A stretch of DNA of 27,025 bases, taken from positions 1-27,025 of IMG/VR virus record IMGVR_UViG_3300025030_000926, one strand, 5' to 3'. Positions 3,301-19,314 of this stretch are shown here, piece after piece (the first letter of the stretch is position 1; every line of letters starts with the position of its first letter). A program made the translations under genes and the position numbers. A model generated the notes under the pieces. It was not told the origin of the DNA and did no database searches. It saw only the letters and a program-made list of their open reading frames with translations. This DNA comes from a virus.

Positions 3301-3302
3301 TT

Positions 3303-3449: not shown

Positions 3450-3450
3450 A

Positions 3451-3597: not shown

Positions 3598-3612
3598 TAA
3601 TAATTATTATGA

Positions 3613-3632: not shown

Positions 3633-3642
3633 ATTATAATAC

Positions 3643-4671
3643 ATGAATCCTAGTGATTTTACAAGATTAGCAAATAACTTCTACATATCCAAAGGAATGG
3701 AGTCCAATATTGAACGTATCAGTATAGACGCTGATTTTGTAAATTATTATGTTGAAAATCAAAAAGGTTTTCCTAGTTCTAAGGTGGCTTTAGTGTTTAT
3801 TTGCCTTAATCCTTTATATTGGCAGTATGCTCCTGAAATGGTGGCTGGAGCCAAAAGATTTTTTCTTCCCGGTCATGAAACTGATTTTTTCTTTTGGACA
3901 GATATACCGACAGAGGGAGTAAAAGATAAAATAACACAGGCCTGGAAAGAACGAGGAAAGGATGTGGAAAATCCTGATGTTATAAAAACTATAAACGATA
4001 TAAGTAGCGCAATTATAGATTTACGAAATAAAAAAGATATAACTCTATTCCCCACCGAAGCGGTTGATTGGCCTTACCCTACTTTATTACGCTATAATCT
4101 TTTTTTACAGCAAGAGGAAAAACTAAAAGAATACGACTATATTTTTTATTGTGATGTAGATATGAAGTTTGTAAATGTGGTAGGGGATGAAATTTTACCC
4201 AAAGAGGGGATTATGGCCGCCCAGCACCCAATGTATGCTCTCAAAAAAGAATATTGGCCACCCTATGAACCCAACGAGCTTTCAGCTTCATATATCAAAC
4301 GCCCCGGCAAATTGATAGAAGAAAATGGCAAGCCTAGATTTATGCCTCTTTACTTCGCTGGAGGATTTCAAGGAGGTAAATCAGATAAATACCTAGAAGC
4401 TATGAAAACTACCAAAAAGATTATTGAAATTGATTTAACTCAATCATATATTCCTATTTGGAACGATGAATCTGCCTGGAATAAGTATTTATCAGAAAAT
4501 TCGCCAGATGTAATTCTTACACCTTCCTATGTTTACCCTGATAGTTTAATAGAGCAATTTTATATTCCACTGTGGGGCTGTAATTACCAACCAAAACTTA
4601 TGACATTAACAAAATGGTTTTCTACTTCTAAAGAGGGTGGGGAAGCCGTAGCCAAGATGCTTAAAAAATGA
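3643..4671 (+). CDS. family GT6 (ABO-type) glycosyltransferase
   Basis: 342 residues. GT6 enzymes are retaining GT-A transferases that add alpha-1,3-Gal or GalNAc; the family includes the human ABO transferases. Visible motifs in order: DFFFWTDIP (about 81-89), WPYPTLLRYNLF (143-154), the metal/nucleotide DxD motif in YCDVDMKF (DVD 171-173), YFAGGFQGG (237-245, acceptor/donor loop) and WNDESAWNKYL (273-283, catalytic Glu region). There is no signal or membrane anchor, so it acts in the cytoplasm. An extra segment around 95-135 is charged and unlike the core family. It is the first gene of the sugar block, after an AT-rich gap, and has its own short leader. Confidence 0.85.
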   Translation: MNPSDFTRLANNFYISKGMESNIERISIDADFVNYYVENQKGFPSSKVALVFICLNPLYWQYAPEMVAGAKRFFLPGHETDFFFWTDIPTEGVKDKITQAWKERGKDVENPDVIKTINDISSAIIDLRNKKDITLFPTEAVDWPYPTLLRYNLFLQQEEKLKEYDYIFYCDVDMKFVNVVGDEILPKEGIMAAQHPMYALKKEYWPPYEPNELSASYIKRPGKLIEENGKPRFMPLYFAGGFQGGKSDKYLEAMKTTKKIIEIDLTQSYIPIWNDESAWNKYLSENSPDVILTPSYVYPDSLIEQFYIPLWGCNYQPKLMTLTKWFSTSKEGGEAVAKMLKK

Positions 4672-4702
4672 TTATAATTAGAAATAAGCGGGAAAAATTA
4701 AA

Positions 4703-5368
4703 ATGTTGACCATCAGCATAAGTTCATATAACCAGGCAGGATATTTACCAGATGCTATTGAAAGTGCGTTAACTCAGACTACGCCGTGCCAAGTTATTGT
4801 GGTAGATGATGGGAGCACGGATAATTCTTTAAAAATTGCCCAAAGTTATGAACCTCAAATTAAAGTCGTTTCGCAAGTGAATAAAGGTCTTCCATCTGCT
4901 CGCAATACTGGTATTATGTGGGCAACAGGAGATTTTGTGTTGCCACTTGATGCAGACGATATACTTTTACCTGATTGTGTTGAAAAGATTTTAGAAGTCA
5001 TAAAACAAAATCCCAACGCTGATATAATTGCCCCCTCTTTCAAGTGTTTTGGTAAAGGAGAAGATACGATTATTTTAAAAGAAAATATCATTTTAAAAGA
5101 TTTTGAGACAGGTAATTATTTACCATATTTTTGCGCTATCAAAAGGGAAAAACTTTTAGAGATAGGTGGATATAGTCCTAAAATGATATGGGGATGGGAG
5201 GATTTGCATTTGTGGATAAACTTGTTGTCTAGGGGTGCGATAGTAAAAACTATACCTAAAGTTTTGGTTTTATACCGCACGAAAGAAAAATCAATGTGGA
5301 CCGACAGCAAAGACCATGCTGAAGAATTACAAGCTCAGATAAATAAAGATTTTCCAACTATTTTTTAA
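4703..5368 (+). CDS. family GT2 glycosyltransferase
   Basis: 221 residues with a complete GT-A fold of family 2. The start ISISSYNQAGYLPDAIESAL leads to VIVVDDGSTDNS (32-42), binding the nucleotide; NKGLPSARNTGI (60-71) follows; the metal-binding DADD is at 83-86, and MIWGWEDLHLW (161-171) carries the ED catalytic-base motif. No membrane segment follows, so it is a soluble transferase. The donor and acceptor sugars cannot be read from sequence. It follows the GT6 gene after 31 bases and precedes an HNH gene, so it probably works on the same glycan. Confidence 0.9.
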   Translation: MLTISISSYNQAGYLPDAIESALTQTTPCQVIVVDDGSTDNSLKIAQSYEPQIKVVSQVNKGLPSARNTGIMWATGDFVLPLDADDILLPDCVEKILEVIKQNPNADIIAPSFKCFGKGEDTIILKENIILKDFETGNYLPYFCAIKREKLLEIGGYSPKMIWGWEDLHLWINLLSRGAIVKTIPKVLVLYRTKEKSMWTDSKDHAEELQAQINKDFPTIF

Positions 5369-5374
5369 TACCAA

Positions 5375-6013
5375 ATGCCAAAAGGGATACCTAAAAATGG
5401 AATAAATAGAGGATGGTTTACCAATAGTCCTAGACCCTACAAGAAAACAGGTATTTTAAAAGTATGTAAGTGTGGTAAGGAATTCTATTGTGAAAAAAAT
5501 GTGATTGAGAGAAAAAAATATTGTTCAACTGTGTGTTTTTATAATTATAAAAGCTATGGTTATATTCATAGCGAAGAAACAAACAAGAAAATAAGTTTAA
5601 GTAATAAAGGAAAAAAACTTTCAGAAGAAATTAGAAAAAAAATAAGTCTTGCCCGAATTGGCAAATCTTCTCCTAAAAAAGGTAAAGAATATCCTCACTT
5701 ACAAGGAGAAAATAGTTCTAGGTGGATTGAGGATAGAAGTAGGATAAAGAAAAGTGATAAAAAACATTTAGATTGTGGTTACATATCTTGGATGTTGAAA
5801 GTCAAAAGGAGAGATAATTGGAAATGTAAAATAGAAAACTTAGACTGTAAAGGTCGTTTAGAAGCTCACCACATACTTCCATGGAGGGATTATCCTGAAC
5901 TTAGGTATGAGGCTAACAATGGCATCACTTTGTGCCACTTCCATCATCCTCGCAAGAGAACTGAAGAAGAAAGATTATCTCCTTACTTTAGAGAAATAAT
6001 CAGTCAGAACTAA
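5375..6013 (+). CDS. HNH homing endonuclease with NUMOD3 motifs
   Basis: Three parts: an N-terminal Cys-rich zinc module (Cys31, Cys33, Cys39, Cys50, Cys54), then two NUMOD3 DNA-binding repeats (HSEETNKKISLSNKGKKLSEE and KKISLARIGKSSPKKGKEYP, about 65-107), then an HNH nuclease with LEAHHILPW (163-170) and NNGITLCHFHH (181-191). This is the architecture of free-standing homing endonucleases that copy themselves into intron-less or uninterrupted alleles. It lies between two glycosyltransferase genes with no functional link to sugars. It is very lysine- and AT-rich compared with neighbours, suggesting recent arrival. The flanking genes look intact. Confidence 0.88.
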   Translation: MPKGIPKNGINRGWFTNSPRPYKKTGILKVCKCGKEFYCEKNVIERKKYCSTVCFYNYKSYGYIHSEETNKKISLSNKGKKLSEEIRKKISLARIGKSSPKKGKEYPHLQGENSSRWIEDRSRIKKSDKKHLDCGYISWMLKVKRRDNWKCKIENLDCKGRLEAHHILPWRDYPELRYEANNGITLCHFHHPRKRTEEERLSPYFREIISQN

Positions 6014-6015
6014 TT

Positions 6016-6594
6016 TTGAAACCGATAAGAAATTATATGGGTGGGTTAGGTAATAGACTTTTTCAATATGCCTATTTATATTCGCAAGTCAGAGAAGGTA
6101 AACTACCTGATATATATTTACAAGACCATAAATACTTTGACAAGTATAAACAGGAGTTGGTAGATATTTTAAGTGTAGATATAATAAAAAGCGATTATGT
6201 TTCTTTACATATTAGAAGGGGCGATTACAAAAATAATTCTTTCTATGTGGATTTAACACAGACAGATTATTACGATAGAGCGATAGCAGAATTTCCCAAT
6301 GATAAATTTTTGGTATTTTGTGCCGATAGGCAAAGTGGGAGTGATGATACATTAGACCAAGAATGGGTAATGAATTGGTTAGAAGCGAAATATGGCGATA
6401 AAGTCAAGTTATTCAAGGGTTTTGACGACATAGAGGATTTTAATAATCAAGCGGGTTGTAAAGCCCACATTATAGCCAACTCCAGTTTTTCCTATTGGTG
6501 TGCTTATGTTGGTGGAGGAAAGGTTATAGCACCAAAAGAATGGTTCGTCGCAGGTAAAGAAATGACATTACCAAATAATTTTATCCGAATATGA
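6016..6594 (+). CDS. compact GT11 fucosyltransferase-like enzyme
   Basis: Motifs of family GT11 (alpha-1,2-fucosyltransferases, GDP-fucose donor) are clear: MGGLGNRLFQYA (8-19), LHIRRGDY (64-71, donor phosphate binding) and ANSSFSYWCAY (154-164). At 192 residues it is about 100 shorter than typical bacterial FutC-like enzymes, with the loss between motifs 1 and 2, so the acceptor-binding half is reduced. The TTG start at 6016 gives the beta strand before the first motif; ATG 6037 would remove it. The ATG of the next gene overlaps its stop. Donor specificity is inferred from the family. Confidence 0.75.
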   Translation: MKPIRNYMGGLGNRLFQYAYLYSQVREGKLPDIYLQDHKYFDKYKQELVDILSVDIIKSDYVSLHIRRGDYKNNSFYVDLTQTDYYDRAIAEFPNDKFLVFCADRQSGSDDTLDQEWVMNWLEAKYGDKVKLFKGFDDIEDFNNQAGCKAHIIANSSFSYWCAYVGGGKVIAPKEWFVAGKEMTLPNNFIRI

Positions 6595-7616
6595 AAACTA
6601 TTTTAGTAACGGGGGCTAATGGATTAGTCGGGGGAGAGGCAATGAGTTTTTTCTTAGAGAAAGGCTGGCAGACTATTGGCATAGATAATAACACAAGAGA
6701 GAAACTTTTTAGTGTGCAACAAGGTTGGAATGTGGGAGTAAGTGATATTGATATACGAGATGAAAGGTTGATAAATAACTTCTTTAAAGACCATAAATTT
6801 GATGCAATTATACACACCGCCGCTCAACCCTCTCACGATTACTCTAAAGACCATGCCCTAGAAGATTTTGATATAAATGCTCGTGGAACTTTAATTTTAC
6901 TAGAAGCAACCCGCAAGTATTGTCCTGAAGCTGTGTTTGTTCACATTTCAACCGATAAAGTTTATGGGGAGAATATGGTGCGAATTAATGATACACTCTT
7001 CGACGAGGAACACAGGCCAGACTTTCTTTTGACAGAAAAAAAGACTCGTTATCATTGTGATTTACCATTTGATGAAGAATTGGGATTAGATTTTACAGGT
7101 CAGCGTTCTCTTTTTGGTTGTTCTAAAACCGCCGCAGATATTTATGTTCAAGAATATGGAAACTACTTTGGCATGAAAACTGTCTGTTTTAGGTGTGGCT
7201 GTATTACTGGCAGAAATCACAAAGGGGCGGAATTACATGGTTTTATGTCTTACCTAGTGAAGTGTATTAAAGAGGGAATTACATATAAAATTTTTGGCTA
7301 TAAAGGTAAACAAGTGAGAGACCAAATTCATGCTTACGATTTAATTTCGGCTTGTTGGGAGTTTATTCAAAATCCTAAAAGTGGAGCAGTTTATAACATA
7401 GGAGGAGGTAAAGAAAGAAGCGTATCTATTTTAGAAGCTATTGATTTAATAGAACACGAAACTGGCAAGAAGGCAATAGTAAATTACATTGACGAAAACC
7501 GAAAAGGTGATAGAATATGGGATATACATAATATCTCTAAATTTATGAAAGATTACCCAAATTGGAAATATAAATATAGTTTAAAAGATATTATCTCTGA
7601 TTTATGTCAATTTTAA
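6591..7616 (+). CDS. extended SDR sugar-nucleotide enzyme, CDP-paratose/tyvelose 2-epimerase-like
   Basis: 341 residues. The NAD-binding GANGLVG is at 8-14 and the active-site strand HISTDKVYG at 118-126. A long stretch with RCGCITGRNHKGAELHGF, FGYKGKQVRDQIHAYDL and YNIGGGKE matches the CDP-tyvelose (RfbE-like) epimerase group, which acts on CDP-sugars. In the catalytic YxxxK position the sequence is LFGCSK (174-179), with Phe replacing Tyr; as I recall, related epimerases of this subgroup can also have Phe, so it may be a subgroup trait. It overlaps both neighbours by a few bases. The fine substrate is inferred. Confidence 0.75.
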   Translation: MKTILVTGANGLVGGEAMSFFLEKGWQTIGIDNNTREKLFSVQQGWNVGVSDIDIRDERLINNFFKDHKFDAIIHTAAQPSHDYSKDHALEDFDINARGTLILLEATRKYCPEAVFVHISTDKVYGENMVRINDTLFDEEHRPDFLLTEKKTRYHCDLPFDEELGLDFTGQRSLFGCSKTAADIYVQEYGNYFGMKTVCFRCGCITGRNHKGAELHGFMSYLVKCIKEGITYKIFGYKGKQVRDQIHAYDLISACWEFIQNPKSGAVYNIGGGKERSVSILEAIDLIEHETGKKAIVNYIDENRKGDRIWDIHNISKFMKDYPNWKYKYSLKDIISDLCQF

Positions 7617-8287
7617 TTACTGGAAATTTCGGCAATATAGGAAGTAGACTTGCTAAATTTTTTGATGGTTACATTGGTATAGACACAAAAGATGGAAAAG
7701 ACCTTTTAACTTGTGAACTTCCTAATGATGTAGATGTAATTTATCATTTAGCGGCTCATGCTCCGGTGGAAAACTCTTGGAAAGACCCTGTGAGGACAAT
7801 AGAAAATCTAGCTACCACTATCCGGCTTGTGCATAAATATCCCAATGCTAAGATAATTTTTGCTTCCACTGGTGCTTCAATAGACCCTGTGTCTCCTTAT
7901 GGATTTTCTAAGTGGGCTTGTAACGAATACTTAAAAAGATTCCATAAAAATTCAGTGATACTTTATTTTCCTAACATTTTTGGTATTCCCAGAAGTGTAG
8001 TTGATATTTTTAAAGGAAAAGATGAAGTAGTAATTTACGGAGATGGTCTTCAGATAAGAGACTATGTTCATGTGAATGACATAGTTTCTGCACTTTGCAA
8101 AGCCCAAAAATGGCAAGCAGGAGAGTATTTTTGTGGCAGTGGAATAAAAACCAATCTATTTCAATTAACTAAAGGGAAAAAAGTAATTTTTAAGGAATCT
8201 CGGAAAGAGCAACGAGAATCAGTGCTTCCAAATACCACTCCAAATTGGGAACCAATTATTAATGTAATGGATTATATTAATGAGTAA
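7604..8287 (+). CDS. small NAD(P)-dependent epimerase/dehydratase (SDR)
   Basis: 227 residues, shorter than the usual 300-340. The cofactor loop GNFGNIG is at 7-13, VDVIYHLAAHAPVENSW (43-59) is the conserved second-strand region, and the catalytic YGFSK is intact at 99-103. The later motif GDGLQIRDYVHVNDI is typical of UDP- or dTDP-hexose epimerases and dehydratases. The loss is mainly in the substrate-binding C-terminal domain, so the substrate is not predictable. It overlaps the preceding SDR by 13 bases and the next HAD gene by 8, so all three are likely co-translated. Confidence 0.78.
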   Translation: MSILITGNFGNIGSRLAKFFDGYIGIDTKDGKDLLTCELPNDVDVIYHLAAHAPVENSWKDPVRTIENLATTIRLVHKYPNAKIIFASTGASIDPVSPYGFSKWACNEYLKRFHKNSVILYFPNIFGIPRSVVDIFKGKDEVVIYGDGLQIRDYVHVNDIVSALCKAQKWQAGEYFCGSGIKTNLFQLTKGKKVIFKESRKEQRESVLPNTTPNWEPIINVMDYINE

Positions 8288-8612
8288 AAAAGACTTACAA
8301 GTATATTGTTTTGACCTTGACGGAACTCTTTGTGAAATAAAAAAAGGGCCAAAAGGTTTAAAAGAGTATGGCAAGGCACTTCCCATGTGGGATAGAATTA
8401 AAAAAGTAAATCAACTCTACGATGAGGGACATTTAATCAAAATTGAAACAGCCAGAGGGCGCCAAACTGACCAGGAATGGGAGGAGTTTACCAAAAATCA
8501 ATTAGCAGAGTGGGGATTAAAGTATCATGTTTTACGGGTCGGTGTAAAAATGCACGCTAATCTTTACATTGATGATAAAGGGATAAATGATAGAGACTTC
8601 TTTAAAGATTAA
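8280..8612 (+). CDS. small HAD-family phosphatase
   Basis: 110 residues with all the core HAD motifs and no cap domain: FDLDGTL (11-17, nucleophile and acid Asp), IKIETARG (53-60, motif II Thr) and LYIDDKGI (95-102, acidic motif IV). The QLAEWGLKYHVLRVGVKMHA stretch is typical of the small sugar-phosphate phosphatases found beside cytidylyltransferases in capsule and LPS clusters. The likely role is dephosphorylating a sugar phosphate or recycling an intermediate. It is followed at once by a cytidylyltransferase gene with a 26-base overlap, which supports a shared pathway. Confidence 0.8.
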   Translation: MSKKDLQVYCFDLDGTLCEIKKGPKGLKEYGKALPMWDRIKKVNQLYDEGHLIKIETARGRQTDQEWEEFTKNQLAEWGLKYHVLRVGVKMHANLYIDDKGINDRDFFKD

Positions 8613-9006
8613 AGGTTATACCTGTGGAAGTTTTGACCTTCTTCATGCCGGGCATCTTTTGATGTTGAAAGAATGTAAAGCTCAGTGTGATTATTTGATT
8701 GTAGGACTGCATACTAATCCAACTATAGATAGACCCTTGAAGAATAAACCTGTGGAAACTGTGGAAGAAAGAATCATACGCCTGCAAGGTTGTAAGTATG
8801 TGGATAAAATTTTAACTTATGATACTGAGAAAGATTTAGTAAATCTCTTAAAAGAATTAAAACCTGATGTAAGATTTTTAGGAGAAGATTGGAAAGGCAA
8901 GCGTTTTACAGGAGATGAATTAGATATTAAAATAATATATAATAGTAGAGAACATGATTTTAGTAGTTCAAATCTAAGGGAACGAATACGCAATGCAAAA
9001 AAATAA
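8587..9006 (+). CDS. cytidylyltransferase-like nucleotidyltransferase (TagD/GCT type)
   Basis: 139 residues. The HxGH motif is in GSFDLLHAGHLLMLKE (14-29) and the C-terminal nucleotide-binding SSSNLRER at 126-133, replacing the classical RTEGISTT. The family transfers CMP (or AMP) from CTP/ATP to a phosphorylated sugar or alcohol; TagD makes CDP-glycerol, and phage and marine-bacterial versions sit in sugar clusters. Here it could activate the sugar for the CDP-linked enzymes next door, but the substrate is not determined by sequence. It starts inside the HAD gene, suggesting coupled synthesis, and the next gene overlaps its end. Confidence 0.82.
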   Translation: MIETSLKIKGYTCGSFDLLHAGHLLMLKECKAQCDYLIVGLHTNPTIDRPLKNKPVETVEERIIRLQGCKYVDKILTYDTEKDLVNLLKELKPDVRFLGEDWKGKRFTGDELDIKIIYNSREHDFSSSNLRERIRNAKK

Positions 9007-9580
9007 CCCAAAAATTTCAATAGTTCTCCCGATTCATGATATGAAAAACGGTGCCTTCTTTTTATGGAGAACCATCAATTCTATCATGGAACAGACCTTT
9101 AAAGATTACGAGATTATTATTACCAAAGAAGGCAAAATGGCGGAAAACACCAATGCTGGAATTAAGAAAGCGAAGGGTGAATTGATTAAAATACTATATT
9201 TAGATGACTGGTTTGCTCACCCAAACGCACTTAAGGATATTGTGGAAAATTTTGATGATAGAATAAATTGGCTTATAACTGGATGTGATACAAACCCTCA
9301 TCCTGAATGGACAGATGATATTGAGACAGGAAATAATAAACTCGGTTCGCCTTCTTGTCTGACTATAAGAAACTGGAATAATATGCCTTTATTTGATGAA
9401 CGCATGAGTTGGTTGCTTGATTGTGATTTATATAAAAGACTCCATAATAGTTCGGGGAAGCCAAAAATTTTAGATGGTGTAAATGTGAATATGGGTATCG
9501 GAGACCATCAAATGACTCATATCTTAACAGACGAAGAAAAATTAACAGAACATAATTTGATGCAAGAAAAATATGCCTAA
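8993..9580 (+). CDS. GT2-like glycosyltransferase, short
   Basis: 195 residues. KISIVLPIHDMKNGAFFLWR (7-26) and the following strands match the start of GT2 GT-A folds. KAKGELIKILYLDDWFAHP (60-77) holds the metal-binding DD (71-72). After it come CLTIRNW and MSWLLDCDLYKRL, a plausible acceptor-side region. The usual DDGSTD is altered to IIITKEGKMAENTNAG, as in divergent members. It overlaps both neighbours and has no membrane segment. Donor and acceptor unknown. Confidence 0.75.
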   Translation: MQKNNPKISIVLPIHDMKNGAFFLWRTINSIMEQTFKDYEIIITKEGKMAENTNAGIKKAKGELIKILYLDDWFAHPNALKDIVENFDDRINWLITGCDTNPHPEWTDDIETGNNKLGSPSCLTIRNWNNMPLFDERMSWLLDCDLYKRLHNSSGKPKILDGVNVNMGIGDHQMTHILTDEEKLTEHNLMQEKYA

Positions 9581-10601
9581 AAAGTGTTTAATAACAGGGC
9601 TAGCGGGAAGTATAGGAATTCATGTTTTTGCTCATATTATGCACAACACTAACTGGGAAGTAGTGGGAATATGTAGTTTCCGTCATAAGGGGCTAGTGGA
9701 TAGAATAGTGGAAATAACTGAAGACCATCCAGAATGGTTAAAGCGATTAAATATGATAACTCATGACCTTTCTGCTCCCATATCGTTCCTTACTAGAGAA
9801 AAAATCGGCAAGATAGATTACATAATAAACTTGGCTTCTCTTTCCGATGTAGAAGCAAGTATCCAACAACCAACAGAGTTTATTCAAAACAATGTGGCTC
9901 TGATGGTTAATATGCTGGAATATGCTAGAGAGGCAAAGCCAGAAGTATTTATTCAATTTTCAACTGATGAAGTTTATGGGCCAACCCAGAATAAAACAGA
10001 TGGCTATAAAGAATGGTCGCCACAAGTTCCCTCAAATCCCTATGCGGCTTCAAAAGCCTGCCAAGAGATGATTTCTGTTGCTTATTGGCGAACCTTTAAT
10101 GTGCCAGTAGTCATTACTAATACGATGAATAACTTTGGAGAAATGCAACAGCCTTTTAAGTTTCCGGTGATGATACAAAAAGCCATAGAGGCAGGAGAAG
10201 AAATAACTATACATGGGAATGAAAATGGAGACATTGGTTCTCGTTCTTATATTCATTCAAGAAATGCGGCAGACGCTTTGTTATTCATTCTCAAACAACC
10301 AGTCTATATGCACCAACCGGCGCAAGCAGACAAGCCCGATAGATATAATATAGTGGGAGATAAACAACTTGATAATTTAGAATTAGCTCAAATTATTGCT
10401 CGTCTTATGGGCAAGGAATTAAAATATAAACTTGTCAACTTCCATAAAACCAGAATGGGGCATGACCCTCATTATGGGCTTGATGACTCAAAATTAAAAG
10501 AGATGGGCTGGAGGTCGCCAGTTTCATTTGAAGATAGTTTGAAGTCCACGATTGAGTGGCAACAGAACCACCCAAATTGGATTTCTAAAAATCATATATG
10601 A
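9573..10601 (+). CDS. extended SDR, sugar-nucleotide 4,6-dehydratase-like
   Basis: 342 residues, the normal family length. Motifs: GLAGSIG (9-15, NAD), QFSTDEVYG (128-136, where the TDE triad is characteristic of 4,6-dehydratases such as RmlB) and PYAASKACQEM (156-166, catalytic YxxxK). GSRSYIHSRNAADALL and YNIVGDKQLDNLELAQ are typical of the C-terminal half. The reaction would give a 4-keto-6-deoxyhexose nucleotide, the entry to deoxysugars. The nucleotide (dTDP, CDP or GDP) is not certain. It overlaps the next gene, a probable 3-dehydratase, by 4 bases, which matches the order of a 3,6-dideoxysugar pathway. Confidence 0.82.
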   Translation: MPKKCLITGLAGSIGIHVFAHIMHNTNWEVVGICSFRHKGLVDRIVEITEDHPEWLKRLNMITHDLSAPISFLTREKIGKIDYIINLASLSDVEASIQQPTEFIQNNVALMVNMLEYAREAKPEVFIQFSTDEVYGPTQNKTDGYKEWSPQVPSNPYAASKACQEMISVAYWRTFNVPVVITNTMNNFGEMQQPFKFPVMIQKAIEAGEEITIHGNENGDIGSRSYIHSRNAADALLFILKQPVYMHQPAQADKPDRYNIVGDKQLDNLELAQIIARLMGKELKYKLVNFHKTRMGHDPHYGLDDSKLKEMGWRSPVSFEDSLKSTIEWQQNHPNWISKNHI

Positions 10602-11770
10602 AACGTGACCTTCGCTATGGAGGGACTCTGATAGATAGTCGTGAAATCAGAGCAATTATAAAATCAATTAACAAAAGCCGTAAAACAGGAAATTGGCAGA
10701 CTGCTTCCGAAGCCCAAAAAATGGAACAGGAAGCCGCTAAATTCCTCGGTGTAAAATATGGAATACTTACTACTAGTGGTAGCTGTGCTGGGCTTTTGGC
10801 TCTTAGTGCTTTGGAGTTGCCTAAAGGTTCCGAAGTTATCATCTCGGCCGTTACTTTCCCTACTATATACAATATCATTCTTCAGTGTTCTCTCGTTCCT
10901 GTTGTGGTGGACGCAAAAGTAGGCACATATAACTTTGATGTAGATGAAGTAGAACAAGCAATTATTAAAAGCAAAGGCAAAGTAAAAGCCGTGATAGCTG
11001 TTCATGCAGTGGGCAATCCTTGCGATATGCCAAGACTAATGAAAGTGGCTAGGAAATATAATGTCAAAGTCATCGAAGATAACTGTGATGGTTGGGGTTC
11101 TACTATACAAGGCAAAAAGGTGGGTTCTTTTGGTGATGTATCAATTACTTCGTTTCATGCAGCACATATTGTTAGCATGGGAGTCGGTGGAGGAATCTAC
11201 ACTAATGATAAAGAAATTGCAGGACGAGTTAGACAATACCGAGATTGGGGGCGACAAGCAAATACAATAGAACCCCATAAAGTAAAAGAACTTCCGAAAG
11301 ATTACAACCCTCGTTTTGTCTACGACAAAATAGGCTACAACTTCCAAATCCTAGAACTTCAAGCGGCTATGGGGAGGGTGCAGTTAAGAAAAACCAATAA
11401 GATAAAAAAATTAAGGAAAAAGAACTTTGACTATTTATATAATGGTTTAATGTGGTTAGAAGATTTATTAATGCCTGATTGGTTGCCGGATACCGATGTA
11501 TGCTGGTTTTCTTTTCCAATTACCTGTTATGGAGATAGAGGTAAACTTGTAGATTATCTTGAAAAACACGGCACAGAAACTCGCAGTATGTTTGCTGGCA
11601 ATATAACACTTCATCCTGCTTACCGTCATTCAAAGTTTAGGATAAGCGGAAAACTTACCGAAGCTAATTACATACTAAAACATTCATTTTGGATATCCAC
11701 ACACCCACGCCTAAAGAAAAGTGATTTGGATTATATTATAAAAGTTTTTAAGGATTATTACAAATGCTAG
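10598..11770 (+). CDS. DegT-fold sugar 3-dehydratase, PLP lysine replaced by His (RfbH/ColD-like)
   Basis: 390 residues with the DegT/DnrJ/EryC1/StrS aminotransferase fold: TTSGSCAGLLAL (58-69), AVHAVGNPCDMPRL (134-147), VIEDNCDGWGST (158-169, Asp161 for the PLP ring) and SITSFHAAHIVSMGVGGG (182-199). Aminotransferases have Lys at the position of His190. Histidine there marks PMP/PLP-dependent 3-dehydratases (RfbH, also called E1; and ColD), which remove the C-3 hydroxyl of a 4-keto-6-deoxysugar. The cysteine cluster that holds the [2Fe-2S] centre of RfbH is absent after RQYRDWGR (residues 212-219), so it resembles the Fe-S-free ColD type. It follows a 4,6-dehydratase-like gene with a 4-base overlap. 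Confidence 0.85.
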   Translation: MKRDLRYGGTLIDSREIRAIIKSINKSRKTGNWQTASEAQKMEQEAAKFLGVKYGILTTSGSCAGLLALSALELPKGSEVIISAVTFPTIYNIILQCSLVPVVVDAKVGTYNFDVDEVEQAIIKSKGKVKAVIAVHAVGNPCDMPRLMKVARKYNVKVIEDNCDGWGSTIQGKKVGSFGDVSITSFHAAHIVSMGVGGGIYTNDKEIAGRVRQYRDWGRQANTIEPHKVKELPKDYNPRFVYDKIGYNFQILELQAAMGRVQLRKTNKIKKLRKKNFDYLYNGLMWLEDLLMPDWLPDTDVCWFSFPITCYGDRGKLVDYLEKHGTETRSMFAGNITLHPAYRHSKFRISGKLTEANYILKHSFWISTHPRLKKSDLDYIIKVFKDYYKC

Positions 11771-12396
11771 AATTACCGCAAGTTACGCTCATTGCACTTG
11801 GGACAAAAAATGTAGAAGGCATGTATAACGCTCTTCAACAAAGTCAAAAAGGTATAAAATGGGGAGCAGTTAAACTTATTACCGAGATACAATGCAATAC
11901 CATAGACGAATGGAATCACGCTATTGTGTTTGAATTACGACATTTCGTAGATACACAGTTTTGTATGTTAGTGCATCCTGATGGTTTTGTGGTTAATCCT
12001 GAAAGTTGGGAGCCGGAATTTTTGAATTATGATTATATTGGCGCGCCGTGGCCACTACCAAGTGATGATTATTCTTACCAGACACCTGACGGTGAAATAG
12101 TTAGAGTTGGAAATAGTGTAAGTATAAGGAGTAAAGATTTACTAGAATTACCTTACGCCTTAGAAGTAGTATGGCGACCTTACTACGGAAATACAAACGA
12201 AGATGGATTTTTAACTTGCCATAACCGCAGACTTTTTCAACATTTTGGGGCTAGATACGCGCCGATTGAAGTAGCCAAATGGTTTGGCAGAGAATTAGAT
12301 ATACCAGAGAATGTAGATGTGGAAAGTCCTTTCGCTTTTCACTTGCATGATACAATGCCAGGTCGCAATGAGAAATATAGAAGTTTAATGATATGA
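11764..12396 (+). CDS. DUF5672 glycosyltransferase-like protein
   Basis: 210 residues. QVTLIALGTKNVEGMYNALQQSQKGI (6-31), CMLVHPDGFVVNPESW (67-82), FLNYDYIGAPWPLPS (86-100) and VRVGNSVSIRSKDLLEL (113-129) reproduce the DUF5672 signature, a GT-A-like family found in glycan clusters. HPDGF is at the place of the nucleotide/metal motif. No biochemistry is known to me for the family, so it is a predicted transferase only. The gene overlaps the 3-dehydratase gene by 7 bases and the next gene by 4. Confidence 0.82.
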   Translation: MLELPQVTLIALGTKNVEGMYNALQQSQKGIKWGAVKLITEIQCNTIDEWNHAIVFELRHFVDTQFCMLVHPDGFVVNPESWEPEFLNYDYIGAPWPLPSDDYSYQTPDGEIVRVGNSVSIRSKDLLELPYALEVVWRPYYGNTNEDGFLTCHNRRLFQHFGARYAPIEVAKWFGRELDIPENVDVESPFAFHLHDTMPGRNEKYRSLMI

Positions 12397-13136
12397 TTTG
12401 TGGTATTTTTCACGAAGGAAGTGGATTAGGCAATCAGTTGCACCGTTATGTAGCGACTAGAGTTTTGGCCTTGGATAAAGGAGTAGGATACAGCATGAAA
12501 AACTTCTCTTTATTTAAAGGAGAACATTTTATAAAAAATGTAAGGTCTATTGCTTGGAGCGAAGGAGAAAAATGGCCGACAAAAGAATGGCTGGAAAAAA
12601 AAGTGGTAGAAAACGGTGTAGACATACGAAGCTATGACCCAGAATTTAATTTTATAGAAGACGGAACTGTCATCGATGGTGAATTTCAGGACGAACGCTA
12701 CTTTGGACACCGAATGAAAGAAATAGACGAATGGTTAAAAGTAGAACCTTTAAATATACCTGATGATGTTTGTGTAATAGGATTTAGAGGGGGAGAATTT
12801 AGTGTATTTCCTGATTTATTTCTCACTAAAGAATATTGGGAAGAAGCGAAAGTTTTAATGTTGCGGAAGAATATAAATATGAAGTTTGAGGTTCATACTG
12901 ATGATGAAATTCTAGCAAAACAGTTCTTTCCTGATTATAAAATAATCCACGATATAGGTATAAACTGGCGAAGTATTCGTTTTGCTAAATACGCTATTAT
13001 CGCCAATTCTTCTTTTTATATTTTACCTAGATTATTGAATAGCGGATACACAATTGCCCCACATTTTTGGGCTAGAAGAAATACTGGCATATGGTGTCTT
13101 CCACAAAATTATTATAAGCAATTTACTTATATATGA
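12393..13136 (+). CDS. GT11-like (fucosyltransferase-fold) protein
   Basis: 247 residues. GSGLGNQLHRYVATRVLA (9-26) resembles the GGLGNQLFQYA entry motif of GT11. CVIGFRGGEF (127-136) matches the HxRRGDY position but lacks the His and the second Arg. KYAIIANSSFYILPRLL (199-215) is the third family signature. It is thus a divergent relative of the compact GT11 protein upstream, probably another transferase. The loss of the Arg-pair may mean a different donor or no activity. It overlaps neighbours by 4 bases each. Confidence 0.7.
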   Translation: MICGIFHEGSGLGNQLHRYVATRVLALDKGVGYSMKNFSLFKGEHFIKNVRSIAWSEGEKWPTKEWLEKKVVENGVDIRSYDPEFNFIEDGTVIDGEFQDERYFGHRMKEIDEWLKVEPLNIPDDVCVIGFRGGEFSVFPDLFLTKEYWEEAKVLMLRKNINMKFEVHTDDEILAKQFFPDYKIIHDIGINWRSIRFAKYAIIANSSFYILPRLLNSGYTIAPHFWARRNTGIWCLPQNYYKQFTYI

Positions 13137-13336
13137 GATGTAAATTATGTAAAATGTTGGAAGATGAAGAATTGATTGTGCACAAGTATGAAACTCATGG
13201 GATTCGACTAAAAGACTCAATGGGGGATGATTACTATTCTGAAGAGAAAATAAAAGAGTTAATCAACAAACATCGGAGAACAGGACAAGCTAGTGTAGAG
13301 AAGAAGTTTGGCAAGAAACCTAGTAGAATTATATAA
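13133..13336 (+). CDS. small hypothetical protein with CxxC, 67 aa
   Basis: Starts MRCKLCKMLEDEELIVHKYETHGIRLKD, with one CxxC (Cys3, Cys6) plus His17 and His22 that could complete a single metal site, then a basic, Lys-rich C-terminus (NKHRRTGQASVEKKFGKKPS). This looks like a small zinc-binding, possibly nucleic-acid-binding protein. It overlaps the GT11-like gene by 4 bases but has no sugar-enzyme feature. No family is recognised. Confidence 0.5.
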   Translation: MRCKLCKMLEDEELIVHKYETHGIRLKDSMGDDYYSEEKIKELINKHRRTGQASVEKKFGKKPSRII

Positions 13337-13355
13337 AATATATTTTAATAAGAAA

Positions 13356-13385
13356 ATGGATACTTATGGTAGAAAATTAAAATAA
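13356..13385 (+). promoter_or_regulatory. 9-codon mini-ORF ending on the next start codon
   Basis: ATG 13356 reads MDTYGRKLK and stops at TAA 13383-13385, where the TAATG shares its A with the start of the DUF3431-like gene. The rest of the 48-base gap is AT-rich. A leader peptide that couples translation is possible; the small size makes chance a real alternative. Confidence 0.25.
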
Positions 13386-13990
13386 TGCTCTTCGTATTAT
13401 CAAGATACAATCATGATATAAGCTGGGTAAAGGACTATACTGATGATGTGGTTCTTTATGATAGAAGCGAAGAGAAAATTTCTAACTCCATTCCCACACC
13501 GAATATAGGAAGTGATTTGTATGATAAATTCACCTACATAATAGATAACTATGACAACCTGCCTGATGTTGCTTTATACAGCAAGGCGAACTTATTTAAA
13601 TACATTACCAAGGAAGAGTTTGACAAAGTAAAAGACAACACAACCTTTACGCCCTTACTAACGCAGAACCATAAAACATATTTACCAATATGCTGGTATG
13701 AAAATGGTCTTTACGCAGAAATTAACGATTATTGGTATCTTGGTTCACATCCAGCGAAACACACTAAGGAGATAATGGATATATTTAAAATGAACGAAAG
13801 ATATTATAATTTATTTGCTCCTGGCTCAAATTACATAATACCCAAAGAAAACATACTTAAACATCCAAAAGAATTCTATGAAAAATTAAGGTCGTTTTTA
13901 GAGTGGGATGTATATCCGGGAGACGCCCAAATTTTGGAACGCAATTTATTTTATTTATGGAACAATCCTCTATCCCCCCAGAAGAATTAG
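13385..13990 (+). CDS. DUF3431-like protein, putative glycosyltransferase-related
   Basis: 201 residues. RYNHDISWVKDYTDDVVLYDR (7-27), IGSDLYDKFTYIIDNYDNLPDVALYSKAN (about 42-70) and the later KHPKEFYEKLRSFLEW follow the layout of DUF3431 proteins, which have RYxEDLxW and IxxNYDNLPD signatures and occur in glycan clusters. The activity of the family is not established as far as I know. The NDYWYLGSHPAKHTKEIM block has no known motif. It follows the basic CxxC protein and overlaps the FkbM gene by 34 bases. Confidence 0.65.
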   Translation: MLFVLSRYNHDISWVKDYTDDVVLYDRSEEKISNSIPTPNIGSDLYDKFTYIIDNYDNLPDVALYSKANLFKYITKEEFDKVKDNTTFTPLLTQNHKTYLPICWYENGLYAEINDYWYLGSHPAKHTKEIMDIFKMNERYYNLFAPGSNYIIPKENILKHPKEFYEKLRSFLEWDVYPGDAQILERNLFYLWNNPLSPQKN

Positions 13991-14487
13991 AGATATTTAA
14001 ATCCCTTAAAGATATTAAGGTTGTTTTTGATGTGGGGGCAAGAACAGACATAGACTACTTTAACATTCTTCCTGAGGCGACTTATCACTTGTTTGAGCCG
14101 AACCCCTTGTTCTTTGCGGACTTAAAAGCAAAGGTAGGCGACAGAAAAAATGTTTACCTAAATAATTATGGTTTGGGAGATAAATTTGAAGAGTTGCCTT
14201 ATGACCCCACTACACAGTCATTTCTTTTACCTGTTACCAATCCTACACTTGCAATTAAAACATTAGACTGGTATATTCAAGAAAATAATATCAAGCGTAT
14301 AGACTTTCTCAAGATAGATACTGAGGGATGGGATTACAAGGTTTTGCTGGGGGGGAAAGAAGCTATTAAAATATGTCGCTATATTCAATATGAACATTGG
14401 AATGATAGGTGGTGTTTTCACGAATTATTAAATAACGATTTCTGGATGAAGTATATAGGATATAGAAATGTTTTATGCCAAAGATAA
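13957..14487 (+). CDS. FkbM-family methyltransferase
   Basis: 176 residues from ATG 13957, chosen because the ATG at 13903 lies 88 bases into the upstream gene and adds residues with no methyltransferase character. The SAM-binding strand VVFDVGA is at 22-28, YHLFEPNP at 43-50 (acidic ribose-binding position) and the FkbM signature AIKTLDWYI (99-107) with FLKIDTEGWDYKVLLGG (117-133). FkbM enzymes O-methylate hydroxyl groups, often of sugars, so a methylated glycan end is a reasonable inference. It overlaps the GT17-like gene by 13 bases. Confidence 0.85.
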   Translation: MEQSSIPPEELEIFKSLKDIKVVFDVGARTDIDYFNILPEATYHLFEPNPLFFADLKAKVGDRKNVYLNNYGLGDKFEELPYDPTTQSFLLPVTNPTLAIKTLDWYIQENNIKRIDFLKIDTEGWDYKVLLGGKEAIKICRYIQYEHWNDRWCFHELLNNDFWMKYIGYRNVLCQR

Positions 14488-15242
14488 TTGATGTTTGTAT
14501 ATACAACGGGGAGAAAGATTTATTTGAAATAAGATACAATATCTTAAAGGATTATGTTGATGAATTTATTGTGGTGGAGTTTGATAAGACATTTAGCGGG
14601 CAACCAAAACCGTGGCGATTTATAGAATATAACTTTAAGAATGTTTATTATCACGGGCTAGAAGAAAAAGACTATTTGAAATACAAAGAACTAGCCGAAA
14701 ATTCTCCTAATACAAAGGGAGCAGAACATTGGAAACGAGAGTTTATGCAAAAGGAGAGTATAAAAGATTGCCTAACTCACTTGAAAGACGATGATATAGT
14801 TTTTATTGGGGACACAGACGAAATAGTTGAGCCGTTATTTTATACCACATCAATATACAAGATTATTAAATTCAAATTGAGGGTTTATACTTATTGGCTG
14901 AATAATCGCTCTAACGAAGTGTTCTGGGGAACAATTAAAGCGAGGTATGGAGATATTAAAGGTGAATGCTTGAATCACTTACGGAATAACGATGAAAGAA
15001 AAAATACCATTTTTGAGGCTGGTTGGCATTTTACCTCTCTTAAAGATGGACTTGCTAAAAAACTAACAGATAGTTATACTGAAGAAGATTATGCCCATCC
15101 TAGAGTGCTGAATGAGTTAAAAGAAAATATAGAGAATAATCGGGACTTTCTTGGTCGGGACTTTACATATAAAGTGGACGAAAGTCAATGGCCAGATTAT
15201 CTCAAAGAAAATAGGTCAAAATACTTGCATTTATTAAAATAA
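14475..15242 (+). CDS. family GT17 glycosyltransferase
   Basis: 255 residues. IIDVCIYNGEKDLFEIRYNIL (4-24), YVDEFIVVEFDKTFSGQPKP (27-46), DDIVFIGDTDEIVEP (106-120, with the DxDE nucleotide/metal motif) and FEAGWHFTSLK (180-190) match GT17, the family of the eukaryotic bisecting N-acetylglucosaminyltransferase III. Bacterial and viral members share the core but not the known specificity, so an N-acetylglucosamine donor is a weak inference. No signal peptide is present. It is the last gene of the sugar block and is followed by a short AT-only gap and the chaperonin genes. Confidence 0.8.
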   Translation: MPKIIDVCIYNGEKDLFEIRYNILKDYVDEFIVVEFDKTFSGQPKPWRFIEYNFKNVYYHGLEEKDYLKYKELAENSPNTKGAEHWKREFMQKESIKDCLTHLKDDDIVFIGDTDEIVEPLFYTTSIYKIIKFKLRVYTYWLNNRSNEVFWGTIKARYGDIKGECLNHLRNNDERKNTIFEAGWHFTSLKDGLAKKLTDSYTEEDYAHPRVLNELKENIENNRDFLGRDFTYKVDESQWPDYLKENRSKYLHLLK

Positions 15243-15258
15243 TATATATAATTAAATT

Positions 15259-15495
15259 ATGAAATGTTTTAAACTCTTACTAAAAGAAATTCCCCAAGAA
15301 AATGCTTGGGGCTATCAAGATAAAGATGCTATCAAGCTCGGTAAAATAGCATTCCCCTTCAAAGGAAAGACAGACGATTATGACTTTGACTTAAAGAAGG
15401 GCGATGAAGTTTATTTTCAATATGGAACAAATGTTAAACTAGACGGGGAGGACTATATATTAGTATCTTTAACAAGCCTAGTATGTCAAAAATAA
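15259..15495 (+). CDS. groES: GroES-type co-chaperonin, short
   Basis: 78 residues against about 97 in bacterial GroES. The C-terminal half is clearly GroES: KLGKIAFPF (26-34), DLKKGDEVYFQYG (44-56) and VKLDGEDYILVSLTSLV (59-75), the strands that form the dome. The N-terminal MKCFKLLLKEIPQ fits the first strand. Between them only about 15 residues (NAWGYQDKDAIKLGKI region) replace the longer mobile loop, and no clear IVL-like tripeptide that docks GroEL is visible. It overlaps groEL by 13 bases, which supports a functional pair. The protein would cap the phage chaperonin ring in the cytoplasm. Confidence 0.78.
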   Translation: MKCFKLLLKEIPQENAWGYQDKDAIKLGKIAFPFKGKTDDYDFDLKKGDEVYFQYGTNVKLDGEDYILVSLTSLVCQK

Positions 15496-17045
15496 TATCA
15501 TTTTCAAAACAAAAACAAATAGATGGAATAAACAAGGTGGTGGATTTAATGAAAATTACTATTGGTCCAAGAGGTAAAAATGTGTCTCTAACCAATGGGA
15601 ATACAGTCAATGATGGTAGACGAATAGCTGAAGACATAATACTTAAAGACCCAACAGAAAACAAAGGGGCAGAAAGGGTAAAACGATTAGTGCGTAAAGT
15701 ATCCAGTGATGTGGGTGGTGGGAGAACTGCAACAGCAATACTTTATCAGGAACTTATCAAAGTAGGTATGGATTTACTTAATCGGGGCTTTAATTTTAAT
15801 GAACTTAAAAAAGGTATGCAGTTAGCGGTCAAAGATATACACGAACAATTAGATAAAATGTCTATACTGGTTAAAGGCAAACTCAAAGAAATAGCTACTA
15901 TCTCAACCGAAAGTGAAAAACTAGGTAAAGTTATTGCTGAAGTAATGGAAAAGATAGGTAGGGATGGCATAGCCACAGTTGAGGAATCTAATTCATTTGA
16001 TATTACAAGTGAAATAACCGAGGGATTGAAGTTTGATAAGGGATTTATCTCGCCCTATATGATAACCAATAACCGGCAAGAGGCGGAATACAAAGATATA
16101 CCTGTTTTAATTACAGATAAAAAACTATCTTTTTTTAGAGATTTGCAACCAATTTATGATTCACTAATTAAGGAATCTGAACTTAAAAAGAGTAAAAAAG
16201 ATTTGATGATTATTGCTGAAGATTTAGAAGGAGAAGCGTTGAGTGTATGTGTGTTTGCTAAACTAAAGGGACAATTCAACACCCTAGCTATTAAAACACC
16301 CGGTATTGGAGATAACAAGAAGTTCTGCCTTGAGGACTTATGCGCACTTACAGGGGCAGAATTGTGGACTGAATACTTACAAGAACCAAAACTCGGCAAG
16401 ATTAAAAAAGTGGTATCAACAAAGGATTCAACTATTATTCTAGGTGGAGATGTAAAAACTTGGATAACTACATTACGAGTCAGAGAAGAAATGACTCCAA
16501 ATAAATGGGAAAAAGACCAATTCCAAGAAAGAATAGCTAAATTACAGAATGGTATAGCGGTAATTAAAGTGGGTGCGTCTAGTGAAGATGAAGTAAAATA
16601 CTTAAAATTAAAGATAGAAGATGGTGTAAATGAAACCAAGAGAGCTTTAGAAAGTGGTATTGTAATGGGGGGGAATACAGCGTTTATTCACGCTTCAAAA
16701 AATATAATTGATTGGTCAAAACAAATACAACCCATCCAAACACATTCACAAGACGAAAAATTGGGCTATAATATAGTATTTGGAGCAATTGAGGCGCCAC
16801 TAAGACAAATTGTGGAAAATTCTAGGGGTAAGCCAGATATAGTGATTGATAAAATAAGAAAGTCTAAAGATTTGACAACAGGATACAATTCATTAGATAA
16901 TACAGTGGTAGATGATATGTATAAATTAGGTATTATAGATGCAACTAAAGTAGTTAAAACTGTGCTAGAATATGCGGTAAATGAAGCTATATTATTTCTA
17001 AGTATCGGAGGTGATGTCTCCGAAGAATTAGAAGAAAATGATTAG
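15483..17045 (+). CDS. groEL: GroEL-type chaperonin, phage-encoded, altered ATPase motif
   Basis: 520 residues, near the bacterial 548. All three domains are present: equatorial (TIGPRGKNV 26-34; NDG at 43-45), intermediate, apical (LMIIAEDLEGEALSVCVFAKLKGQFNTLAIKTPG, about 241-274), and equatorial again (KLKIEDGVNETKRALESG 375-392, with Asp380 matching E. coli Asp398; MYKLGIIDATKVV 479-491). The GDGTTTAT nucleotide/Mg motif of GroEL, where Asp87 is catalytic, reads GGGRTATA (78-85): Asp is Gly79. ATP hydrolysis is therefore likely altered. No GGM tail is present. It follows GroES directly, and phage GroELs are usually thought to fold capsid or other phage proteins. Confidence 0.92.
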   Translation: MSKIISFSKQKQIDGINKVVDLMKITIGPRGKNVSLTNGNTVNDGRRIAEDIILKDPTENKGAERVKRLVRKVSSDVGGGRTATAILYQELIKVGMDLLNRGFNFNELKKGMQLAVKDIHEQLDKMSILVKGKLKEIATISTESEKLGKVIAEVMEKIGRDGIATVEESNSFDITSEITEGLKFDKGFISPYMITNNRQEAEYKDIPVLITDKKLSFFRDLQPIYDSLIKESELKKSKKDLMIIAEDLEGEALSVCVFAKLKGQFNTLAIKTPGIGDNKKFCLEDLCALTGAELWTEYLQEPKLGKIKKVVSTKDSTIILGGDVKTWITTLRVREEMTPNKWEKDQFQERIAKLQNGIAVIKVGASSEDEVKYLKLKIEDGVNETKRALESGIVMGGNTAFIHASKNIIDWSKQIQPIQTHSQDEKLGYNIVFGAIEAPLRQIVENSRGKPDIVIDKIRKSKDLTTGYNSLDNTVVDDMYKLGIIDATKVVKTVLEYAVNEAILFLSIGGDVSEELEEND

Positions 17046-17218: not shown

Positions 17219-17503
17219 ATGGATGAAGAAAATACGATAAAACCGCATAAGAAATCGTATGATTGGTTAAAACAATATCAATTTCAAGCTGGGAACAATG
17301 CTAATCCAAACGGAAGACCAAAAGGTAAAAGTCTTAAAACATTTGTTAAAGAGATGCTTGAAAAAATGTCAGATGAGGATAAGGCAAAATACTTAAAGGA
17401 GTTGGACCCAGATTTTACTTGGCGAATGGCTGAAGGAAATCCTGCTAATAATGTAGAAGTATCCGGCGAACTTAAAAGTAAAATAATCAGATTAAATGGA
17501 TGA
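17219..17503 (+). CDS. terminase small-subunit-like protein (DUF5681 motif)
   Basis: 94 residues. FQAGNNANPNGRPKGKSLKT (32-51) is the DUF5681 signature (GNxxNPxGRPKG), common in phage proteins encoded directly before the large terminase. EMLEKMSDEDKAKYLKELDPDFTWRMAEGNPANN follows the usual layout. In packaging this type of protein is believed to recognise DNA and direct the large subunit. The overlap with the large-subunit start (8 bases) agrees with that. Whether this protein itself binds the packaging site is inferred from position. Confidence 0.7.
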   Translation: MDEENTIKPHKKSYDWLKQYQFQAGNNANPNGRPKGKSLKTFVKEMLEKMSDEDKAKYLKELDPDFTWRMAEGNPANNVEVSGELKSKIIRLNG

Positions 17504-18881: not shown

Positions 18882-18891
18882 CGATTGTGAG

Positions 18892-18900
18892 TTATCCACA
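18892..18900 (+). promoter_or_regulatory. perfect TTATCCACA 9-mer (DnaA-box consensus)
   Basis: TTATCCACA in the 49-base gap after terL matches the high-affinity DnaA box. Only one copy is seen in the gap, so it is not an origin by itself. It could be a host DnaA-binding site or chance. Confidence 0.3.
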
Positions 18901-18930
18901 TAGACATTCATACTTGACAACAAGTAGAAT

Positions 18931-19314
18931 ATGTTTATGGATAAAACTAATTTTGAATTGGTAGAAGAAAATGCCATTGACTCTCCAGTCAAAGATATTA
19001 AATGGTATGGCAAAGAAGATATCACAGAACAAAAATCTATACATGATAAAGGTAAAGGCGAACCTGTTTTAATAAGATTATTTGAATTTAGACTTGCACC
19101 TAATTTAGAAACATTACCAACTAAGGAACAGATTTTAACTCTTGAATATATTAAACACTTAAAAGTTCAATTATGGGCTGATGGTTTGCGTTTGATTATG
19201 GAGCCGAGAGTGATGATAGACAAAGAGAGCATTAAGATATTTGCTCCCTGCCAGGCAACAATGGGTAATAACTTTTTAGAAGAGCCTAAATTATTACAAG
19301 AATGGATAAAGTAA
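18931..19314 (+). CDS. hypothetical protein between terminase and portal, 127 aa
   Basis: Start ATG 18931 or ATG 18937 (MDKTNFELVEENA). The protein is mixed alpha/beta, with VLIRLFEFRLAPN and a central TLPTKEQILTLEYIKHLKVQLWADGLRLIMEPRVM. It has no cysteine clusters or membrane segment and one Cys (residue 108). Genes at this place often encode packaging or head-assembly helpers, but no motif is recognised. Its TAA overlaps the portal gene, so the two are probably translated together. Confidence 0.7.
   Translation: MFMDKTNFELVEENAIDSPVKDIKWYGKEDITEQKSIHDKGKGEPVLIRLFEFRLAPNLETLPTKEQILTLEYIKHLKVQLWADGLRLIMEPRVMIDKESIKIFAPCQATMGNNFLEEPKLLQEWIK

Follow-up and report, generated by a model that had tools for sequence, protein, structure and literature searches.

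The glycan-synthesis block and its phage context

The stretch of viral DNA analysed here (IMG/VR virus record IMGVR_UViG_3300025030_000926, positions 1 to 27,025; hereafter the window, 27,025 bp in full) carries an 11.6-kb glycan-synthesis block at positions 3643-15242. All genes of the block lie on one strand (+), and 11 of the 16 gene junctions within it overlap. RusA lies upstream and the terminase downstream, in agreement with a preliminary description, made from the sequence alone, of a one-strand overlapping block between DNA-metabolism and packaging genes. The families named in that description were recovered by Pfam above the curated cut-offs for GT6, two GT2, GT11 and GT17 glycosyltransferases (GTs), three short-chain dehydrogenases/reductases (SDRs), a sugar 3-dehydratase, a cytidylyltransferase, an FkbM methyltransferase, DUF5672 and DUF3431. 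A second GT11-like protein and a HAD phosphatase did not reach the Pfam cut-off, and their family calls stand on clustering, motifs and PHROG matches. Missing from the description were an HNH/NUMOD3 gene and a 67-aa open reading frame (ORF) within the block, and the Cpn10/Cpn60 genes behind it.

A separate 43,534-bp record from another metagenome is 99.976% identical to the window over 25,122 bp, the block included. It has a 42-bp terminal direct repeat and is therefore probably a complete genome, 27% of which (11.6 kb) is taken up by the block. Putative small terminase, large terminase and portal genes (17219..21203, +; Pfam Terminase_3/6N and SU10_portal) form the adjoining packaging region; besides terminase and portal, one capsid profile match was obtained. 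An Amidase_2 lysis gene is located elsewhere in the complete genome (G001), which also encodes a PHROG DNA methyltransferase (L131 2194-2907). The preliminary description had itself raised the possibility of a chromosomal segment joined to phage DNA through misassembly, and the same families do occur together in a bacterial locus (see below). This explanation is refuted, because the independent complete genome carries the block at 99.98% identity (25.1 kb compared). Moreover, dozens of contigs carry the block flanked by phage genes, and its GC content and GC content at third codon positions (GC3) match those of the head genes.

DNA megablast of the window against phage records gave no match. 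The portal had no relative among 50,697 phage records, and none in GTDB contigs or in 380 genomes of the Zambryskibacteria phylum; therefore, no host was derived from the structural genes. The window clade comprises genomes of ~40-44 kb without a cultured member and shows that a quarter of a compact genome is kept for glycan synthesis. An Rfam search of the window returned nothing. When positions 2900-18000 were scanned for promoters and terminators, terminator-like sites occurred at chance level and promoter-like sites were uninformative.

Glycosyltransferases of the block

The first gene of the block encodes a GT6 protein (3643..4671, +; PF03414, 67 bits against a cut-off of 25) that belongs to the core of the window clade. 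Its DxD motif is kept in 21 of 21 relatives, whereas most bacterial GT6 proteins carry NxN instead (PMC3961637). The best PDB matches are BoGT6a and the human ABO transferases. Two GT2 proteins were found, of which GT2a (4703..5368, +; PF00535, 115 bits against 23.3) retains DDG and DxDD, and GT2b (8993..9580, +; PF00535, 29 bits against 23.3) belongs, together with DUF5672, GT11b and GT17, to a core present in other phage lineages. GT11a (6016..6594, +; PF01531, 51.5 bits against 23.9) is alpha-1,2-fucosyltransferase-like, and its H-x-R..Y motif is kept in 24/24 relatives. GT11b (12393..13136, +) clusters with GT11a in BLASTP and keeps FRGGE and NSxF; it has no Pfam or NCBIfam match and a weak match to a PHROG glycosyltransferase family (21 bits). 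GT17 (14475..15242, +; PF04724, 70 bits against 26), with DxDE and GxHF retained, closes the block.

The two DUF proteins are predicted to be glycosyltransferases as well. DUF5672 (11764..12396, +; PF18922) was modelled by AlphaFold2 (AF2) with a mean confidence (pLDDT) of 92.5 and has a GT-A-like predicted fold. Its nearest PDB fold is the major-capsid glycosyltransferase of PBCV-1, a likeness at fold level only (TM score 0.59, 14% identity), and a protein of STIV is also among the fold matches. DUF3431 (13385..13990, +; PF11913; AF2 pLDDT 91.5) is probably of GT-A type too, on weaker evidence than DUF5672: its model matches BoGT6a weakly (TM 0.41-0.45) and a GT-A-type phage protein in BFVD with a TM of 0.72. 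For most enzyme families of the block, relatives share the catalytic motifs without or almost without change, and the genes are therefore not decaying.

Enzymes for a predicted deoxysugar donor

Between and behind the first GT genes lie the enzymes of a candidate deoxysugar route. SDR3 (9573..10601, +) resembles RmlB-type nucleoside diphosphate (NDP)-glucose 4,6-dehydratases, with the dTDP-glucose 4,6-dehydratase 6bi4 as best PDB match and the catalytic motifs STDEV and PYxASK kept in 19/19 homologues. Since it scored 193 bits with TIGR01181, below the equivalog cut-off of 365, its substrate nucleotide is unproven. The adjacent gene (10598..11770, +; Pfam DegT, 271 bits) encodes a pyridoxal phosphate (PLP)-type sugar 3-dehydratase of the RfbH/ColD type. 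Among profiles it fits RfbH best (335 bits, cut-off 423), and its best PDB match is 3bcx, a CDP-4-keto-6-deoxyglucose 3-dehydrase. In the window and all core clade members His190 replaces the PLP-binding Lys. The His is also present in 31/31 homologues from other viral lineages, while relatives G005 and G008 have Lys. The 2Fe-2S cysteines of E1 are absent from the protein of the window and its clade, so that the enzyme may work like ColD and is classed as RfbH/ColD-type rather than E1; in 28 of the 31 homologues from other viral lineages, four Cys occur in the aligned E1 region. In relative G028 (L112-L114) the RfbH gene, split across contig ends, looks intein-interrupted just before the invariant Cys163: at the contig end the sequence is EDC-CLAEGTLVKTSKGNLAIQDIKVGDEV, and the second part starts VHN-CDSF.

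SDR1 (6591..7616, +; Epimerase/SDR Pfam) is closest to the structures 9rl0 (126 bits) and 1orr (116 bits), CDP-tyvelose 2-epimerase, with the next match at 72 bits. It keeps TDKVYG. Phe stands in place of the YxxxK Tyr in 13/13 members, and as the catalytic Tyr is replaced we count SDR1 only as working like a CDP-tyvelose 2-epimerase. SDR2 (7604..8287, +; Pfam Epimerase, 65 bits) is a short SDR with SPYGFSK in 9/9 and a putative 4-ketoreductase or epimerase. The profiles and motifs together bear out the earlier assignment of the block to sugar activation, modification and transfer with a deoxysugar route, and a glycan containing a 3,6-dideoxyhexose is well supported as its predicted chemistry.

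Relatives swap other genes into the donor part, whereas the GT core is retained. A GDP-mannose 4,6-dehydratase is present in G006 and G008 (419 and 405 bits, cut-off 415), where its partner is of the His type or the Lys type (aminotransferase), and further relatives add sugar C-methyltransferase, radical-SAM/B12 and GT47-like genes. Radical-SAM/B12-binding and exostosin GT47-like proteins were seen at the cassette end in G021 (L098 14387-16894), G022 and G029.

Conservation in the window clade

The cassette was compared in 26 contigs of the clade, window included. With local rearrangement allowed, the order is GT6-GT2a-(GT2b)-GT11a/SDRs-RfbH-DUF5672-GT11b-DUF3431-GT17-(chaperonin)-terminase-portal; G030 has the entire cassette in inverted orientation and at another place. 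To limit bias, loci were collected by their portal gene alone. GT17 stood ahead of the terminase in 27/27 of these loci with at least 3.4 kb of upstream sequence, and DUF5672-GT11b-DUF3431-GT17 was complete in 16/16 loci with at least 8.3 kb upstream (two being near-identical phages). The cassette is universal in the clade where sequence permits the test. The SDR and RfbH proteins are conserved at 60-63% and the portal at 62%. That all cassette genes were inherited together in strictly vertical fashion was considered and rejected: correlations with portal distance range from 0.06 to 0.64, which makes gene-wise exchange inside a fixed order likely.

The same core in unrelated phages

A neighbourhood comparison across phages had been proposed in the preliminary description; in the comparison made here, much the same set of enzymes recurred beyond the 26 clade contigs, in unrelated lineages. 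In a second lineage, with a portal and a capsid that find no match in the window clade at the level of hidden Markov models (HMMs), SDR3-RfbH-GT11a-GT2b-DUF5672-GT11b-GT17 follows the head genes. A 356-aa gene ahead of SDR3 in this lineage was considered as a capsid gene and rejected; it is GT-like, with weak Pfam support.

At least 563 relatives of DUF5672 are present in IMG/VR, and the best 79 of these loci were surveyed, 63 of them outside the window clade. In the 63 viral loci, GT11b was found 57 times, GT17 55, GT11a 53, GT2b 47 and the 3-dehydratase profile 32 times. With a slightly wider grouping, all five core GTs were present in 38 outside loci, at a median span of 7.4 kb and on contigs of up to 476 kb. 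Among the 50,697 phage records, DUF5672 had 8 matches, GT17 7 and GT11b 6, with large overlap: the records concerned are those of five Synechococcus phages, of an uncultured phage of 642 kb and of a single-cell fragment. The set is thus unusual, as first described, only by the measure of public phage records, where each core enzyme is found in 6-8 of 50,697; it is not so within IMG/VR or within its own clade. In the 642-kb megaphage the order is GT6-RfbH-GT2b-DUF5672-DUF3431-GT11b-GT17, close to that of the window. The cultured carriers are the T4-like Synechococcus phages (Kyanoviridae) S-H68, S-B05, S-B43, RB11-B and RN05-S. In sum, phages that are unrelated and differ widely in genome size share a GT11-GT2-DUF5672-GT11-GT17 core, which is usually accompanied by the 3-dehydratase.

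This distribution bears on the idea that the genes serve generic auxiliary nucleotide-sugar metabolism without a defined glycan product. The donor pathway does depend on host NDP-hexose, and comparable genes are commonly labelled auxiliary metabolic genes (AMGs). Nevertheless, an ordered cassette of many GTs in every testable clade member and a five-GT core across lineages render this idea improbable. DNA glycosylation, in which the block would make sugars and attach them to hypermodified bases, is more doubtful still. It is suggested by DNA-methylase genes in some relatives and by the ability of phage glycosyltransferases to glycosylate DNA (literature cited in PMC12619734). Set against it, the thymidylate-synthase-type hydroxymethylase PF00303 had no match in 17 long contigs (the TET/JBP type was not part of this search). 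A dideoxysugar route and as many as eight GTs would be more than DNA glycosylation is known to use. Furthermore, in the core carrier S-B43 cytosine carboxymethylation serves as a handle for amides, and no sugar was reported (PMC12783734).

Accessory and neighbouring genes

Several genes in and around the block lie outside the core. A free-standing homing-type HNH/NUMOD3 endonuclease (5375..6013, +; PF07460, 34 bits, above the cut-off; HNH below it) sits between two GT genes and is a passenger outside the sugar pathway. This gene is present in few relatives; HNH/NUMOD3 genes are scattered between cassette and head genes in the window, G003, G006, G020, G021, G027 and G030. It is possible that such endonucleases drive the gene-wise exchange. 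Two accessory genes overlap each other: a small HAD phosphatase-like protein (8280..8612, +; below the Pfam cut-off, PHROG 1238 at 79 bits) with FDLDGTL, TARG and YIDD retained, and an RfaE-II/TagD-like cytidylyltransferase-like protein (8587..9006, +; PF01467, CTP_transf_like, 68 bits) that matches TIGR02199 and TIGR01518 at ~70 bits, below the equivalog cut-offs. The 67-aa ORF (13133..13336, +) has no Pfam match.

The FkbM-family methyltransferase (13903..14487, +; PF05050, 54 bits; TIGR01444, 62 bits, above the cut-off) probably starts at the ATG at 13957. It occurs in 7 of the 26 compared contigs, which corrects the preliminary description of a methylated glycan: methylation is an accessory trait. 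Cpn10 and Cpn60 chaperonin genes (15259..17045, +; Pfam Cpn60, 160 bits) lie between block and terminase. Of 31 related records, 10 have Cpn60, which is a frequent neighbour outside the pathway; in L073 and L151 it directly adjoins RfbH. A ParB_N protein with an N6/N4 DNA methylase was seen in G008 (L141 6423-7559).

A bacterial counterpart with a membrane half

DUF5672 proteins of the window kind are rare in the sampled bacterial genomes: 2 of 380 genomes from the Zambryskibacteria phylum have one, as do 4 of 399 from the phylum to which a Coxiella metagenome-assembled genome (MAG) belongs, one of these four being a probable phage fragment. A 3.9-Mb bacterial genome (G570, L308-L309) contains an apparent O-antigen locus with the same GT set: RfbF-like, RfbG, RfbH, SDRs, DUF5672, two GT17, DUF3431, GT11b, GT2 and further GTs. 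It also holds two multi-spanning membrane proteins that look like Wzx/Wzy and a WbaP-like initiator. This rfbFGH locus shares RfbH, SDRs, DUF5672, GT17, DUF3431, GT11-like and GT2 genes with the phage, whereas RfbF, RfbG, a reductase, the apparent flippase/polymerase and the WbaP-like initiator are found in G570 only. No membrane protein was predicted in the phage cassettes, and the lipid-phosphate initiator PF02397 (Bac_transf) had no match in 17 contigs, in a search that did not extend to the PF00953 type. Judged by gene content, the phages keep only the cytosolic, soluble half of an O-antigen-like set. Transfer between the G570 locus and the phage block may have run either way.

On the Zambryskibacteria contig MHWN01000005 (L149/L160), RfbH is nested in the phage clade with 100/100 support and adjoins an SDR3 homologue, an apparent phage-bacterium transfer. 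The link to a patescibacterial host is weak and serves as a lead only, because a single gene transfer or a chimeric MAG accounts for this contig. A Coxiella MAG includes two small contigs (L150, L151) that are pieces of such a phage cassette and probably represent misbinned phage.

Host-surface remodelling is the main alternative to a virion glycan. The phage enzymes would extend host undecaprenyl-linked intermediates, host flippase, polymerase and ligase would export the product, and superinfection would be blocked or progeny freed from receptor debris. That the same enzymes stand beside initiator and export/polymerase-like genes in G570 is in line with this, and phage O-antigen nucleotide-sugar genes have previously been interpreted as host-surface AMGs (PMC12911398). 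However, the membrane part is absent from the cassettes. Serotype conversion is typical of lysogens, while a temperate gtr system was not recognized: neither Phage_integrase (PF00589) nor cassette membrane proteins (GtrA/GtrB/GtrC) were found, serine recombinases lying outside the search. In addition, the core occurs in phages of presumably very different hosts, for which one shared host acceptor is unlikely. On balance we regard host-surface remodelling as less likely than the virion reading given below, but as its main rival.

A proposed model of virion glycosylation

Families, catalytic residues, gene order, co-inheritance and the missing membrane half can be read from the genes themselves. 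From these we infer the identity of the sugar, the order of transfer, the acceptor and the benefit as follows. The phage would draw NDP-hexose from the host, and SDR3 and the RfbH-type protein, acting as 4,6-dehydratase and 3-dehydratase, would convert it to NDP-4-keto-3,6-dideoxyhexose. SDR2 and SDR1 would reduce or epimerise this product to a paratose-, tyvelose- or colitose-like donor. Six to eight soluble GTs (GT6, two GT2, two GT11-like, GT17, DUF5672 and probably DUF3431) would then assemble a branched oligosaccharide, which FkbM may cap with a methyl group. The glycan would be attached in the cytosol to a virion protein, the most likely acceptor, either ahead of assembly or in its course. 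Swaps of donor genes would result in different 'serotypes' among related phages.

A virion acceptor is favoured over the host surface because of the absence of a lipid-linked initiator, membrane protein and integrase and because of the late-gene context. GT genes adjoin structural genes in several phages: terminase and portal in the window, head genes in the second lineage, tail fibre and gp9, which the block follows, in S-H68, and in L195 a 1513-aa, tail-spike-like protein with an S74 chaperone behind the block. Cytosolic glycosylation of phage proteins also fits because the core is common to phages of presumably very different hosts. Several points weigh against this reading. No virion glycan has been observed, and the window clade has no known host or isolate. 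Closeness to structural genes need not mean action on them. The bacterial homologues make lipid-linked surface polysaccharide, and the phage enzymes could feed a host carrier. No NDP-hexose pyrophosphorylase (PF00483, NTP_transferase) was found in the phages, and the exact sugar is uncertain because the E1 Fe-S cysteines are missing and SDR1 lacks the catalytic Tyr. Taking both sides together, we give an even chance to the reading that the block is a portable module with which the phage makes a glycan of its own in the cytosol of the host, attached most likely to a virion protein. Should a self-made complex glycan be present on the virions of many environmental phages, adsorption, decay, predation and immune recognition would have to be re-read from genomes, and many lipopolysaccharide (LPS) AMG annotations would be better interpreted as virion genes. 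Since the core occurs in cultured Synechococcus phages, the question is directly testable.

Comparison with known systems

The donor route resembles the CDP-3,6-dideoxyhexose pathway (RfbG/RfbH/RfbI/RfbS/RfbE) in its 4,6-dehydratase, His-type 3-dehydratase and tyvelose-epimerase-like SDR. It differs in an RmlB-type rather than RfbG-type first step and in the Fe-S Cys, which the window clade lacks, and neither RfbI nor RfbF was recognized. The Kyanoviridae likewise hold GT17, GT11b, a His-type RfbH, DUF5672, GT2, GT11, a cytidylyltransferase, SDRs and FkbM in one block by tail genes. Theirs are ~210-kb myovirus genomes with another gene order and an E1-like SFYPAHH site, and GT6 and DUF3431 were not found in the blocks of the five phages named above. 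The papers searched do not describe a functional role of these blocks, nor did the open-access literature, to which the search was confined, yield a description of the conserved cross-lineage module.

In mycobacteriophages, phage-encoded GTs act on virion proteins (Freeman et al. 2023, cited in PMC12619734), a step only inferred here. Those mycobacteriophages are described with few GTs, compared with up to eight GTs and a dideoxysugar pathway in the window block. Chloroviruses and other nucleocytoplasmic large DNA viruses (NCLDVs) encode both donor-sugar synthesis and GTs for autonomous glycosylation (PMC4691112), as seen here; these are eukaryotic viruses of ~300 kb or more, and the likeness between DUF5672 and a PBCV-1 capsid GT does not go beyond the fold. 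Virion glycosylation by phages, autonomous glycosylation by viruses and nucleotide-sugar genes in phages are each known separately. We tentatively propose, at somewhat less than an even chance, that a self-glycosylation module of about five soluble GTs with a swappable deoxysugar donor cassette, common to unrelated phages of ~40 to >600 kb and with its origin in the soluble half of a bacterial O-antigen locus, coats virions with a host-independent, serotype-like glycan and would be the counterpart of autonomous glycosylation in chloroviruses.

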